Source of the DNA: Fistulifera solaris | Lineage: Eukaryota; Bacillariophyta; Bacillariophyceae; Naviculales; Stauroneidaceae | DNA: 64,000 nt | Direction of reading: 5' to 3' | Assembly (NCBI GenBank): GCA_030295235.1 | Contig: AP026141.1 | Coordinates: forward strand, 124,001 to 188,000 | Part shown: one piece after another, positions 13,021-55,976 of the stretch | Layout of the letters: each line of letters begins with the position of its first letter | Position numbering within the stretch: position 1 is the stretch's first letter | Made by a program: the position numbers and the translations under genes | Notes under the pieces: generated by a model | The model's input: only the letters and a program-made list of their open reading frames with translations | What the model was told of the DNA's origin: nothing | The model's database searches: none

Positions 13021-13119
13021 GGTCGTAGCGAAATGCTGGACAAAGTGTTATTGGTCATGCTGCAATTCTTTGGAAGCTCAAGAAATTCTACAGAAGACAT
13101 AATTTCTGTATGATTGAAA

Positions 13120-13455
13120 TACAACTTGTCCAGAATTTCCGGACTAGCTCAGATTTTCTGTAAGAATCAAATATTACTGGTCCAGAATTTCTGGAGCAGC
13201 CCAGATTTTCCGTATGAATGAAATACAACTGGTCCAGAATTTCTGGACCAGCCCAGATTTTCTGTGTGAATCAAATATTACTGGTCCAGAATTCCTGGAC
13301 CTGCCCAGATTTTCCGTATTCCGTATTAATGAAATACAACTGGTCCAGAATTTCTGGACCAGCCCAGATTTTACAACTGGTCCAGAATTTCTGGACCAGC
13401 CCAGAATGAAATACAACTGGTCCAGAATTTCTGGATTTGCTCAGATTTTCTGCAA
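13120..13455 (+). repeat. palindrome array B (GGTCCAGAATTTCTGGACC type)
   Basis: Seven units of about 40-57 nt start near 13130, 13178, 13228, 13280, 13337, 13375 and 13416. The core GGTCCAGAATTTCTGGACC is a near-perfect palindrome. Most units add a second half-site CCCAGATTTTC and then ATGAATGAAATACAA. Units here are far more alike than in array A, which suggests more recent amplification. Confidence 0.8.
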
Positions 13456-41358: not shown

Positions 41359-41562
41359 TGATAGTAGGAGAATTAACGTTTATTTGGTTCCAATGGCAGA
41401 CAACAAAATCTTGACGAAAAAAATGACGTTGGTTGTTGTAGTTTATTTCGACGCGCAGTTTAGCGTTTGGGATACCGAAACCACCAAAACGCATGGAATG
41501 AATCGACTTTCCCACATTTTCTGGGAACGTGAAATAATAGCACTTCCTTTTTCGTTGACCTT

Positions 41563-42540
41563 GAATTTTCACTATGAAACGGAGTGTTAGTTTACAACAT
41601 CCAAGACTGAATGATACAGTAGTCATGAACCGAACAGCAAAGGATTCCGTTTTACGTCTCGCGCATCCGTCCATTCTCATTCAACTGCGAATATAATTAT
41701 GATTACGGCCGAATAAAGTCACAATGATGACTCTGAACTACATGTTAAGAGTTTTTATTTCACGTCGAAATAATCCGAGGATCGACAGCATGAATTTTCA
41801 CTATTAAACGGAGTGTTGGTTTACAACATCCAAGACTGGATTGTACAGTAGTCATGAACCGAACAACAAAGGGTTCCGTTTTGCGTCTCTCGCATCCGTC
41901 CATTCTCATTCATCTGCGAATATAATTATGATTACGGGTGAATAAAGTCGCAATGATGATTCTGAACTACTTGTTAAGATTTTTTTATTTCACGTCGAAA
42001 TAATCCGAGGATTGACACCATGAATTTTTCACTATGAAACGGAGTGTCAGTTTACAACATCCAAGACTAAATGGTACAGTAGTCATGAACCGAACAACAA
42101 AGGGTTCCGTTTTGCGTCTCTCGCATCCGTCCATTCTCATTCAACTGCGAATATAATTATGATTACGGCTGAATAAAGTCACAATGATGATTCTGAACTA
42201 CTTGTTAAAAGTTTCTTTTATTTCCACGTCGAAAATATTCGAAGATCGACACCTTGAATTTTCACTATGAAACGGAGTGTTGGTTTACGCCAGCCAAGAC
42301 TGGATTGTACAGTAGTCATGAACCGAACAACAAAGGGTTCCGTTTTGCGTCTCTCGCATCCGTCCATTCTCATTCAACTGCAAAAATAATACTAATTATA
42401 GATAAATAAAGTTGCAACAATGATGATTCTAAACTACTTGTTAAGAGTTTCTTTTAATTTCACGTCGAAAAATTGGAGGATTGACACCCTGAATTTTTCA
42501 CTATGAAACGGAGTGTTGGTTTACACCATCCAAGACTGGA
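41563..42540 (+). repeat. 230-bp satellite, four copies plus a partial fifth
   Basis: Units start at GAATTTTCACTATGAAACGG: 41563, 41792, 42022, 42256 and 42491 (partial, about 50 bp). Spacings are 229, 230, 234 and 235 bp. Conserved blocks include CATCCAAGACTGGATTGTAC, AGTAGTCATGAACCGAACAA, CTCGCATCCGTCCATTCTC and ATTTCACGTCGAAATAATCC. Drift between units is mild and includes small indels. No frame is kept across units. Confidence 0.9.
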
Positions 42541-42554
42541 TGTTTCGAGTCAGA

Positions 42555-49314: not shown

Positions 49315-50952
49315 TTATTTAAAGCAATACGCGGCCGCTTCTTTTAGCTGTTGCAGACTTGATTCTTCATTTTCATTCAGAATAGTAAACTCAAAGACAC
49401 CACTGGAAATACCATATTCGACTTCTTTCACGACTTCACGAATTTTGTTGCGAATGGTGCTTTCCCGGGTTTCCTCTTCGTCAATCACAATGGCTCCAGA
49501 ATCAATCGCGTCCCCCAAACGTTTCTCAAATTCATCCACACTGTTCAAACCTACCCATACTCCAATAATACGAAGACCCGGAATTCGTGTCAGTTTCTTG
49601 GATAACTCGACGCTGGCATCCACAATGACAACCGATTGGTTTTGCGCCGCGGCCGCCGCCGAAGAAAGAAGTCCTTCTTTCGTCATGCCTCCTTCCGTCA
49701 AGAGCTCACCCCGTTGTGCCAGTCGCTCATAGGTGGCGGGATCGGACATGGGATCGATTTTGCTCGGCTCCACAAAACGACCTTCTCCTTCGGCCAAAAG
49801 ACGCTTCACTAATTCGCTGCGACCCGTCGCTTGCGGGCCCGATACCAAAAGAATGGTGGGCAAGCCAGCATTGGAGGTAGTTTCTACAGCTCTCGTGGAG
49901 GATTGCGCCAACTGGAGCGCCATTCCGACACTTCCGGGTACTTGCAGTCCTGTATCATTCTGATTGGTAGTGTCTGTGAACGCTTCCTGCAGCTGAACAG
50001 CAAAGAGTGGTAAACGGTACGTCAAGAAACCCAACATCGCCGCACCAAACTGTTCGGCCGTCACATAATCAAACGTTCCTTTCCCGGCGACCGGACTCGC
50101 TGCTCCACGACTCTGATTGTACAAGGCTACGCCGACCAACACAATCAAGGGCATGGCAAATCGCAAATTCGATATCCCTTTGCCCATTTTCGCTTCGGGG
50201 GAAGCAATCGTGTCTGTCTTGACCGACAGTAAAAAGAGATACACTAAACTACTAAGCGCACCCGCACAATAAATGGCCGCATCTTCCGTGCCTTTTACGA
50301 AATCGACGACGACCGTGCCGGCGGCACCCGTGAGAGCGACAAATTTGAATATTTTGGTTTTGATCGATCCGTACAGTTCCCAATCTTGCGCCACCACATC
50401 GGTGTTAACAATCCGGACCGGTCCCGTATAATCGTCCAGGTCGTAGGTTTCGGCCCGCACTTTGGGCACTCGATTGGGGCCCATGGGCAATTTGAAGGCA
50501 TTTTCACTTTGCACGAAACTGGCTAAAATGGGACTCACGGCATCAATGTCACGCAATACCTTTTTTCCTCTCCGTTGTTGGGACGAATATTCGGCAAAAT
50601 ATCCGTCTCCGACATCTTCAAGAGGCGTCACTTCAATCAACCATCCAGTTGTGCCTCCGGGTTGAATGAAGGAAATCTTCCCCACCAACGCTTGTCCATC
50701 GACACGACCGCCATCGAGATCGTAATAACGCACAATATCCCCAATTGCTGGATGTAATGACTTTTTGGCAGTTTTTGTTGCTTGGCTACTTTCTTCTCGT
50801 TGCGGAACGTACGCCGCGTAAATGACGCGTGGCTTTCGAAACGTTTCAACAATGGTGACGGCTGTTTTTGTCAACAGTGGCGATAGGGTAAAGGCAAGGC
50901 ACGATGGCGCCCATAACAGAGAAAGGATCCAGCAGTGTCGTATAGCTGTCAT
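49315..50952 (-). CDS. plastid-targeted membrane protein with guanylate-kinase-like domain
   Basis: ATG 50952 begins a signal peptide followed by an A-F site (SCLAFTLSP), the bipartite plastid presequence of diatoms. A middle region has PAIGDIVRYYDLDGGRVDG (SH3-like). Several membrane spans follow (TEDAAIYCAGALSSLVYLFL, and FAMPLIVLVGVALY). The C-terminal 190 residues resemble a nucleotide kinase: LLVSGPQATGRSELVKRLL, then GEGRFVEPSKIDPMSDPATY and IREVVKEVEYGISSG. The P-loop has Arg where Lys is expected (G-x4-G-R-S). The fusion of membrane and kinase-like parts is unfamiliar to me, so no substrate is proposed. The frame is intact, 545 residues. Confidence 0.65.
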   Translation of the reverse strand: MTAIRHCWILSLLWAPSCLAFTLSPLLTKTAVTIVETFRKPRVIYAAYVPQREESSQATKTAKKSLHPAIGDIVRYYDLDGGRVDGQALVGKISFIQPGGTTGWLIEVTPLEDVGDGYFAEYSSQQRRGKKVLRDIDAVSPILASFVQSENAFKLPMGPNRVPKVRAETYDLDDYTGPVRIVNTDVVAQDWELYGSIKTKIFKFVALTGAAGTVVVDFVKGTEDAAIYCAGALSSLVYLFLLSVKTDTIASPEAKMGKGISNLRFAMPLIVLVGVALYNQSRGAASPVAGKGTFDYVTAEQFGAAMLGFLTYRLPLFAVQLQEAFTDTTNQNDTGLQVPGSVGMALQLAQSSTRAVETTSNAGLPTILLVSGPQATGRSELVKRLLAEGEGRFVEPSKIDPMSDPATYERLAQRGELLTEGGMTKEGLLSSAAAAAQNQSVVIVDASVELSKKLTRIPGLRIIGVWVGLNSVDEFEKRLGDAIDSGAIVIDEEETRESTIRNKIREVVKEVEYGISSGVFEFTILNENEESSLQQLKEAAAYCFK

Positions 50953-51009
50953 GATTTGTGGCAGGAGTTGCAGAGTAGTTTGCAAAAATAACACCTGCTG
51001 ATGATAAAA

Positions 51010-53080: not shown

Positions 53081-55976
53081 ATGATTATGAATGTTGACCT
53101 CCCTTTGGAAACAATGACGAAGGAAGAGGTAGTTGAAGAAGAAGCGGCAGAGCAACTAAAGCGGGAAGATATTGCAGAAGAACAGAGCCAGCAAAATGAG
53201 AGCAATACGAAAGCTGATGATGCATGGGATGCGGCGTCAGTCGACGCATTATTTCCAAAAGCCGCCGCTCTTTCTATTGTAATATGGCTCCTTCTTGTTG
53301 TTCTTGTTTTGACACAAACACCGCCCGAGTATCATGAAGTACTGCGGGAGGAAGAACGAGTCGCAACATTTCTGGCGGCCGTCGTCATGTTTGTGACGCT
53401 TCTGGCGTTGTTGATGCCCTCATTACTCTTCAAAACGTCCTATCCCAGTGGGATTGTCATCGCCGGTACGGCCGTCTGCTTTGTCGCCATGTGCACCAAT
53501 CTAATCCTGTGTTTGCGTCCCACGGTGGTCGTGGTCGATCCGGTCACCAAAGCGCGCGTCTTTCTGCTCCGTTGGTGCGAATGGATCCCACTCGGTGGTC
53601 TCATGACGTTCCTCTCCGAAGCCGTCTATGTCAGTGACGACACGGGAGGCATGGAGGGAGCGTTGTTCTCGACACTGTGCCAAACGCTGTCCATTGTTAA
53701 TGGTATGATCCTGCCCCTCTGCAAGGATGTGGTGGTCTGGCGGTGCGTATTTGCCTTTAGTTTCTTGTCCTATACCGATATATTCCGTCGTGTATATATC
53801 AAACGAAAAGCCTATTTAAAAAAGCATTCAAAAGAGTGACGGCGTTCAGGATCAAAAGCTTCAAGATCAAGTCAAGTTCGCTTATTTCCTTCTATTGGCT
53901 TGCAGTATTGTGTGGTCGGTACTGGTGGTTTTATATTGTATCAATGTATGGATCCACACCCTGTCGGATTTGGAAACTAAGTGGTACTACCGGGAGTCTC
54001 TTGCCATGATCGTAGATACGTCTTTTGATGTGCTGGCCAAATCCATCTACATGAAGTTGATTACCGATATTCATCAAGCGCTCTTTGATGAAACGTATCA
54101 ATGGAGAAAGCAGCTCACGGAAATGCGGCAACTGATCAGTGTCATGTGGGATTCGAGTTCCGATGTCATTCTCATTTCCATTCGAACCAACCAAGGGTTA
54201 TCGGCCATCTTATCACCGGCTTTCTTTCCGCTAGTGGGCGCCAAGCTGCCAGAATCGTTGCATCGAGAGGGCTCCGAAGTGGCGTTAATGTGTTCCGTCA
54301 GTAGTTCGGGGAAAATCAAATGCGATTATGTCGAGACAAATGATATACTCGTGGATCCACATCGCAATCATAAAATACTACAGAGTGCCGAAAATCGAGA
54401 ATCGGTATTGAAAGGGGCGCAAGAGCTTTTGGAAATGACTTGGAATAATACGGTAGCCAAGGGAGTGTCCACGCCATTGTTAGAACACCCGCTTCACGGA
54501 GAAGACGGTACTATTCGACAATCGGAGATAAAAATCTCATACTATTCCGAATCTGCCCGAGTAGGAGTTATTCGGGATGTTTCCGAACGGTATCTTCGGT
54601 TGGAAGCGGAACGAAAGGCGCACATGGAAATGGTGGCGCGACAAAAGGACGCTCAAGCTGTCAATCGCTTCACCCGGCATGAGGTAAAAAACGGTTTATT
54701 GGAAGGGATTGAGCTGTGTGATAGCCTTCGTTCGGCTGTAGAAGATCTTGTCGCTCAGTCTTCTTTGGCGCCAAGTCCGTCCAACCCATCCCAGAGGAAA
54801 AGAAATGGCAGCGTTGGAGAAGAGTCCGATCGCGAAGTTGGTAGTCGCGCGGTCAGTGCTCTGACACGACGTTTTATCGAGGATCTTGATTACAATCTGC
54901 ATAGCGTATTGGACTGTGTTCTCGCGGAGGCGATGGCAAGAGACGTGATCCATGGTGATTACAAACCGAGGCATGAACGGATTGATGTAAAGGGAGTGCT
55001 TTCACATCCTGGACTTGGGATTGGATTTACAGACAAATTCCCGATTGAAGTTTTGGGCGGGTCATTACCGTACGTAAGCTTGGATGCCCAACTGCTACGG
55101 CACATTCACCGAAATGCGCTGTCAAATGCATGCAAGTATGGCAAGGCAGGAGGAAAGGTTGTGACACAACTATCGTTTGATTCACTGAGTAAGACGTTCA
55201 CTATCAACGTGATCAACGAGCCGGGAGAAATGCATTCGAAGCTCGTCAGCATGGGAGAATCTGCAAAGGCGGCCGTCTTTCAACAAGGTGCTAGATTACA
55301 TTCTCACTTGAATCTTGAAACTGGTCATATTTCTTCTGGCGATGGCGCATGGATTATGCAAAAATGTGCCAAAACACTCGACGGGGAATGTCAGATTGAG
55401 TTTTTGGAAGACAAGACAGTATTCACATTTTCTTGTCCAGCTCAGCCGCTTGTAGTTACGGATTGGAGCAAAACACAAGACTTTGAGGTTCCATCCAACA
55501 CTTGGGGGATTGCGATTGATGATTCAAAAATTCAAAGACGGCTGCTGTCACGTATCTTTTTGTTCGCTGGCGTTCAGGAATCTAAAACTGTTGTTCTGGG
55601 GGAATCGTATTCGGAAGTAGCAGAATTCAAAGAGAAGGTCCTTTCAGTCGTTAAAGAATATCCCGACGATAGGATATTGATTTTGGTCGATGAAAACCTG
55701 GACTTTGGAAAAAGCAACGAAAAGCCTCACGTCATGTCTGGGTCATTGCTGATGCAAGATATCTTGAAACTAATGTCACCAACCGAGGAGCAGCATGTTC
55801 TTGCTCTTGTTCGGTCAGCAAACGATTCGGCAGAAGAAACCGAACTATATTGCGCACGGACGCATGGTTTCTTCCCCAAGGGCCCCTTACAACGCGATCG
55901 AGTACGAGAGATTCTGGCCCCTCTCTGGGCCGACCGATTTATGAGAACCGACCTACTAACCGCATCATCGTCGTAG
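53081..55976 (+). CDS. histidine kinase rhodopsin (enzymerhodopsin)
   Basis: The protein has about 964 residues after bridging one frame break (A6 at 53818-53823, one extra A). Eight membrane segments: an extra N-terminal helix, then A to G. Helix C has RWCEW (R164, E167, W168), matching bacteriorhodopsin R82, D85 and W86. Helix F has VWS. Helix G has SFDVLAKSIYM (D316, K320), the exact D-x3-K spacing of the D212 counterion and the K216 retinal lysine. A coiled linker and PAS-like segment follow. Next come HisKA (FTRHEVKNGLLEG, H533), an ATPase with N-box RNALSNACKYGKAGGK, and a receiver-like domain (IAIDDSKIQ, ILILVDENLDF). Expected role: light-regulated phosphorelay. The helix C positions of T89, T90, P91 and D96 are not kept, so it is sensory rather than a pump. 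Start ATG 53081 or 53087. Confidence 0.82.

Follow-up and report, generated by a model that had tools for sequence, protein, structure and literature searches.

The window analyzed here, a 64,000-nucleotide stretch of the Fistulifera solaris genome, contains a gene that probably encodes a diverged diatom histidine-kinase rhodopsin which the Pfam rhodopsin model does not see, and whose product is predicted to bind retinal and to respond to light. The gene belongs to a family of five copies in this genome, namely the window gene on contig C38, its homoeolog on C39, a tandem pair on C13 (C13a and C13b, loci L020 and L021), and one copy on C14 (L022). All five share a layout of eight hydrophobic segments, a linker, an H-box, an ATPase, and a receiver (Table 1). 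The original prediction had read the gene as a retinal-based light sensor feeding a phosphorelay; by profile homology and kinase motifs this is still the best reading, although the rhodopsin family model PF01036 is silent. To our knowledge, retinal-based rhodopsin-kinase light switches have so far been a matter mainly of green algae. If the family binds retinal, then type-1 rhodopsin kinases reach diatoms and have been missed by standard annotation, and a link between light and diatom two-component signaling becomes directly testable.

Table 1. Features of the window gene. Residue numbers follow our own count, in which K318 corresponds to K320 of the original prediction, whose count begins two residues earlier; BR, bacteriorhodopsin.
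Feature	Positions in the window	Strand	Details
Whole gene, 8TM-linker-DHp-ATPase-receiver hybrid histidine kinase	53087..55976	+	Stop codon TAG 55974-55976
Extra N-terminal helix TM0	53264..53314	+	W67 at 53285-53287, kept in 5/5 copies
Helix C fingerprint R-W-C-E-W	53570..53584	+	R162, E165, W166, matching BR R82, D85, W86 by alignment
Single-base frame break	53816..53824	+	Within TTAAAAAAG; homoeolog one base shorter and open across
Helix F Trp W276	53913..53915	+	5/5 copies; candidate counterpart of BR W182
Helix G F-D-V-L-A-K	54024..54041	+	D314, K318, matching BR D212, K216 (retinal lysine) by alignment
Linker with PAS-like region, probably helical at its end before the H-box	54090..54620	+	Named by eye
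H-box FTRHEVKNG	54669..54695	+	Putative phosphoacceptor His (H531) 54678-54680
HATPase_c domain	55083..55445	+	N-box RNALSNACKYG; GDGAWIMQKC box; NEPG replaces the usual DxGxG
Receiver-like domain	55494..55940	+	DD 55518-55523, Asp 55689-55691, Ser 55815-55817, Lys 55878-55880

The assembly searched comprises 51.7 Mb in 61 contigs. It contains 23 matches to the silicon transporter family (best, 741.7 bits), which bears out the diatom host that had been suspected from the letters of the DNA. Many loci are paired on neighboring contigs, the HisKA loci among them lying on C38/C39, C23/C24, C40/C41, and others; this recalls the allopolyploidy of F. solaris, described as having 42 homoeologous chromosome pairs (PMC5935921). 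Elsewhere in the window we observed a repeat array (41558-42542; unit length 229 bases, 4.2 copies, 89% matches), a tandem array with the near-palindromic stretch CTGGTCCAGAATTTCTGGACCAG (13103-13449), and, on the minus strand at 49318-50994, a protein matching the CGL160 C-terminal domain (36.4 bits), which we take to belong to a family of chloroplast ATP synthase assembly factors. The start of the rhodopsin-like gene had been set at 53,081; translation probably begins at a Met at 53,114 that is common to the C39 homoeolog, and this start is likelier than 53,081 or 53,087.

The membrane domain has the eight helices that were first proposed, including an additional N-terminal one such as enzyme rhodopsins have. 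Hydropathy peaks are strong (~2.0 to 2.2) for TM0 and helices A, B, and F and weaker (~1.0 to 1.4) for helices C, D, E, and G. An AlphaFold model, built from an input alignment of ten rows that are mostly fragments, places helices at all eight positions and in the expected order, with B and C separated by single bridge residues; its confidence is low (pLDDT 45.2, pTM 0.40), too poor to judge a retinal pocket.

The residue signature of the domain agrees in most respects with that of microbial rhodopsins. The R-x-x-E-W motif of helix C is present as predicted, as is D-V-L-A-K in helix G (54,027-54,041), with the spacing of four between Asp and Lys that characterizes D212 and K216 of bacteriorhodopsin, both of which are invariant in an alignment of nine rhodopsins. 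K318, aligned with K216, is kept in all five copies, and so are the carboxylates at positions 165 (Glu, helix C) and 314 (helix G), the latter being Asp in C38 and C39 and Glu in the three paralogs C13a, C13b, and C14. Within the helix boundaries, a count that leaves out the helix ends (positions 90, 263, and 327), the positions charged in every copy are R162, E165, D/E314, and K318, which are the ones aligned with R82, D85, D212, and K216. The V-W-S motif noted in helix F is found at 53,910-53,918, but only its Trp is shared among the copies; W276 pairs with W182 in the nine-rhodopsin alignment and falls a few residues off in the alignments with the 89-rhodopsin profile described below. Tyr57, Tyr185, and Pro186, which are invariant in the nine-rhodopsin alignment, have no counterparts, Asn138 and other residues aligning there. 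Counted along the helix from E165, the position of the bacteriorhodopsin proton donor D96 is occupied by Leu176; the absence of a donor Asp thus holds, and a proton pump is unlikely.

Pfam does not recognize the domain. A PF01036 search, proposed as a check along with the original prediction, gave no match in any of the stretches scanned, namely C38 (whole domain and halves), C14, and parts of C13b and C39; bacteriorhodopsin as the positive control scored 250.6 bits. Nothing rhodopsin-like was retrieved when the membrane domain was compared with PDB chains (by C14 sequence and by family alignment) or with NCBIfam. Searches of the genome with PF01036 and with a cyanobacterial rhodopsin as query, both run without a positive control, found nothing, and no relatives of the gene were confirmed in viral contigs and prokaryote genomes. 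The first hydrophobic helices of C38 match DUF2208 at 23.6 bits (E 4.7e-05), below the cut-off of 24.3.

Profile-profile comparison with controls, rather than Pfam, is what makes a probable homology to rhodopsins detectable. As reference we used 89 type-1 rhodopsins from 80 prokaryote loci, one viral locus, and eight plasmid loci. In global mode the five-copy profile aligns to this set end to end and covers helices A to G, with RWxEW (RWCEW in C38) placed on RYADW and F[DE]VxxK (FDVLAK in C38) on LDVSAK. The score is 22.5, compared with a maximum of 12.4 and a median of 2.9 for 200 shuffles in which blocks of 12 columns were left intact, and with 5.2 for the reversed profile. As further controls served six-frame ORFs of at least 150 residues with at least four hydrophobic segments, some of which may not be real genes; 85 of the 123 had local scores above 60 and were taken as rhodopsins, and the other 38 (two of them from the window and all others from fetched loci, with no member of this family) reached at most 12.1 in global and 20.6 in local mode when scored singly. 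The like-for-like comparison with these ORFs is that of C38 alone, both being single sequences, and C38 scores 18.3 globally, in an unchanged register, and 27.8 locally.

The individual copies are uneven. C39 scores 29.1 locally and 16.0 globally, the latter for an alignment that is only an end-to-start overlap; C13a scores 5.8 globally and 22.0 locally. C13b (4.8 global, 19.9 local) and C14 (0.5 global, 20.4 local) lie locally at the background level set by the other ORFs. The claim of homology therefore rests on the family profile together with C38 and C39, and the C13 and C14 copies are carried by their homology to these. The local profile score of 28.0 (100 shuffles, maximum 23.4) comes from an alignment that spans helices A to E only; against the nine-rhodopsin set the local score is 30.4, and the alignment extends to the lysine. 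Profile P-values are modest (0.00028 global, 0.0026 to 0.0036 local), the hhalign probability is 9 to 18%, and the five copies score only 1.2 to 8.9 bits under a rhodopsin HMM run without filters.

An unlikely alternative is an eight-helix sensor, derived from or resembling a rhodopsin, that has lost the ability to bind retinal, or else a membrane sensor module of unrelated origin; either would feed the same phosphorelay in response to another stimulus. The silence of PF01036, the missing tyrosines and proline, the background scores of C13 and C14 copies taken singly, the poor AlphaFold model, and sub-cut-off matches to other membrane families such as DUF2208 would all fit such a sensor. What it leaves unexplained is the conservation of K318, the carboxylates at positions 165 and 314, R162, and W166 across sub-families whose membrane domains are only ~29% identical (C13/C14 proteins compared with the window protein; the kinase part is ~40% identical), as well as a dN/dS that is lowest precisely in helices F and G (see below). 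Moreover, a buried lysine with counterions would not evidently be needed in a protein that does without retinal. We prefer the histidine-kinase rhodopsin. Carotenoid oxygenases of the RPE65 family, which includes retinal-forming enzymes, have 13 matches in the genome, each at most a candidate for such an activity.

The reading frame of the window gene is broken by one base: a single extra base in the A-run at 53,818-53,823 puts the gene in two frames. The C39 homoeolog, 90.3% identical over 2,856 aligned bases, lacks this base and is a single open frame between helix D and the beginning of the receiver, with the ATPase inside it. The two genes differ by four single-base indels, the window's break and three bases elsewhere that are present in C38 and absent from C39; every other indel within the aligned coding sequence has a length divisible by three. 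At least one break occurs in each of the five family copies, which makes sequencing error the simplest cause of the breaks, the one at 53,818-53,823 included, where a real mutation is also possible. Conserved genes of this assembly are repeatedly frame-split (L019, L020, L021, and L022, as well as silicon-transporter and RPE65 matches), and the recurrence suggests uncorrected indel errors of the assembly, which raise the risk of missed gene models. RNA structure at the break is no better than that of shuffled sequences (z 1.13) and lends no support to a structure-driven programmed frameshift.

The homoeolog pair is under purifying selection, with a dN/dS of 0.124 overall, 0.114 in the membrane domain, 0.045 in helices F and G (the lowest value), 0.071 in the DHp and ATPase domains, and 0.06 in the receiver; the N-terminal tail stands at 1.475. 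These values bear on the very improbable case that the gene is a pseudogene, or that helices E and F are spliced out, so that no complete sensor would be made. That case could draw on the frame-breaking base of the window copy, on the three further C38 bases that C39 lacks, and on a GT-AG pair at 53,743-53,905 (helices E to F), the best placed of 63 such choices that would restore the frame. The homoeolog, however, is without the extra base and open there, which makes an intron unlikely, and 18 of 162 bases differ between C38 and C39 within the would-be intron, 13 of them at third, 4 at first, and 1 at second codon positions. The intron at 53,743-53,905 was rejected on these grounds. Splicing out of the helix F-G region, which the original prediction had named as an outcome speaking against it, is accordingly unlikely for the best GT-AG pair. 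Together, the low dN/dS and the third-position bias point to a working gene including helices E to G. Decay is also made less likely by the other indels in multiples of three and by the recurrence of breaks in all five copies and in genes for silicon transporters and carotenoid oxygenases, a pattern to be expected of sequencing errors left uncorrected.

Rhodopsin-like domain and cytoplasmic enzyme thus lie in one polypeptide in the open frame of C39, and their order is the same in C13 and C14. The membrane domain does not run straight into HisKA, as was first thought: H531 comes 213 residues after K318, and a linker of ~200 residues separates the two parts. The PAS-like character that we assume for this linker goes by its motif, and a Pfam search of the window protein gave no match there. 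Of the HisKA assignment the H-box motif (HEVKN) stands, with H531 presumably as the phosphoacceptor, whereas PF00512 has no match to the protein. The ATPase domain with its N-box is present. HATPase_c scores 23.1 bits in the window, below the cut-off of 26.4, and 26.2 and 30.2 bits in C14 and C13a, the copies as a whole ranging from 23.0 to 30.2 around the cut-off. The boxes are named (N-box, G1, and GDGAWIMQKC box) as we presume them to correspond, and the G1 box is atypical in having NxPG in place of DxGxG, so that catalysis is not certain.

The receiver-like domain likewise has no match in a Pfam search, but its residues D, D, S, and K are kept in all five copies, and we take their roles, including that of the phosphoacceptor Asp, to be the customary ones. 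Aligned with receiver loci of the same genome, 10 of 20 of which were used (the others, with a stop in the translation, were excluded), the receiver obtained a local score of 24.6 over 30 columns only, against a maximum of 20.7 in 100 shuffles; the test is a weak one. The genome as a whole has 32 HisKA and 42 receiver matches. Pfam reported no guanylyl cyclase domain in the window protein.

C38 and C39 end after the receiver; the C13 and C14 paralogs have an extra C-terminal tail containing LHALKGD, which by this motif may be read as a histidine phosphotransfer (HPt) domain, none being reported by Pfam in the tail. Next to the C14 gene lies what is left of another tandem copy, now decayed (L147:506-799, C14:885405-885698), in which the HPt-like motif reads LHALKAD. 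Two paired HPt-like loci, L145 and L146 (C1:687402 and C2:658473), lie at the Pfam cut-off and are the only such loci in the genome at E values up to 1; by sequence, they are candidate shared phosphotransfer proteins.

In the mechanism that we propose, an opsin-like bundle of seven helices, with TM0 packed alongside, would carry retinal on the helix G lysine K318; E165 and D314, the latter replaced by Glu in three paralogs, would lie at the Schiff base. On illumination the retinal would isomerize and thereby shift the C-terminal helix G, and the linker with its PAS-like region would relay this change to the DHp helices, altering autophosphorylation of H531. From H531 the phosphate would pass to the receiver Asp and then to a histidine phosphotransfer step, provided by a separate protein in the case of C38 and C39 and by their own HPt-like tail in the case of C13 and C14. 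Retinal binding, the light response, the sign of regulation, and phosphotransfer are all inferred in this scheme. More tentatively, and as a possibility to which we give less than even weight, the family may represent an unrecognized branch of diatom enzyme rhodopsins, invisible to Pfam, that feeds a multistep phosphorelay. The carboxylate in helix G would then divide the branch into two spectral types, one with a Glu/Asp pair like that of Rh-PDE (C38/C39) and one with a Glu/Glu pair like that of NeoR and an HPt-like relay tail of its own (C13/C14). If true, such a branch would give diatoms a second, retinal-based color sense beside phytochromes, aureochromes, and cryptochromes.

The published classes of enzyme rhodopsins are histidine-kinase rhodopsins (HKR), RhoPDE, and RGC (PMC8815786, PMC12558739). 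Diatom rhodopsins in print, FcR1 and PngR, are described as xanthorhodopsin-type proton pumps (PMC10627834, PMC10308239); in contrast to these type-1 rhodopsins, the window protein is an enzyme fusion without a carboxylate at the D96 site. Within the open-licence literature on diatom or stramenopile rhodopsins and histidine kinases, the matches listed contained no diatom enzyme rhodopsin in the parts consulted. By its description, the Rh-PDE of Salpingoeca rosetta resembles the window protein in having eight helices, a Trp in TM0 (here W67), a Glu at the D85 site, and an Asp at the D212 site, together with a TM7 lysine and ~20% identity to other rhodopsins (PMC7644710); its output is a phosphodiesterase, while that of the window protein is a histidine kinase. 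The carboxylates of Rh-PDE at these two sites are Glu164 and Asp292; since Glu164 is reported to stay protonated at all times, with Asp292 as the only counterion (PMC7644710), the assignment of the helix C Glu as Schiff-base counterion in the original prediction does not follow. The C13/C14 paralogs share Glu at both the D85 and the D212 site with NeoR of the heterodimeric rhodopsin-cyclases, in which these residues are E136 and E262 (PMC8815786), although the third NeoR carboxylate, D140, falls by the same count on Leu169 in the window protein, and the output domain differs. Three HKRs had been characterized according to a 2022 review (PMC8815786), and light is stated to inhibit the kinase of known HKRs (PMC12558739). 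Compared with their published descriptions, the window protein is set apart by its diatom origin, its invisibility to the Pfam rhodopsin model, a PAS-like linker before the kinase, the lack of a Pfam-reported guanylyl cyclase, and paralogs (C13/C14) with an HPt-like tail. Like the green-algal HKRs Chlamydomonas HKR1 and Ostreococcus Ot-HKR, it joins an opsin-like domain, a histidine kinase, and a receiver in one chain (PMC12558739, PMC12704426, PMC6798134).
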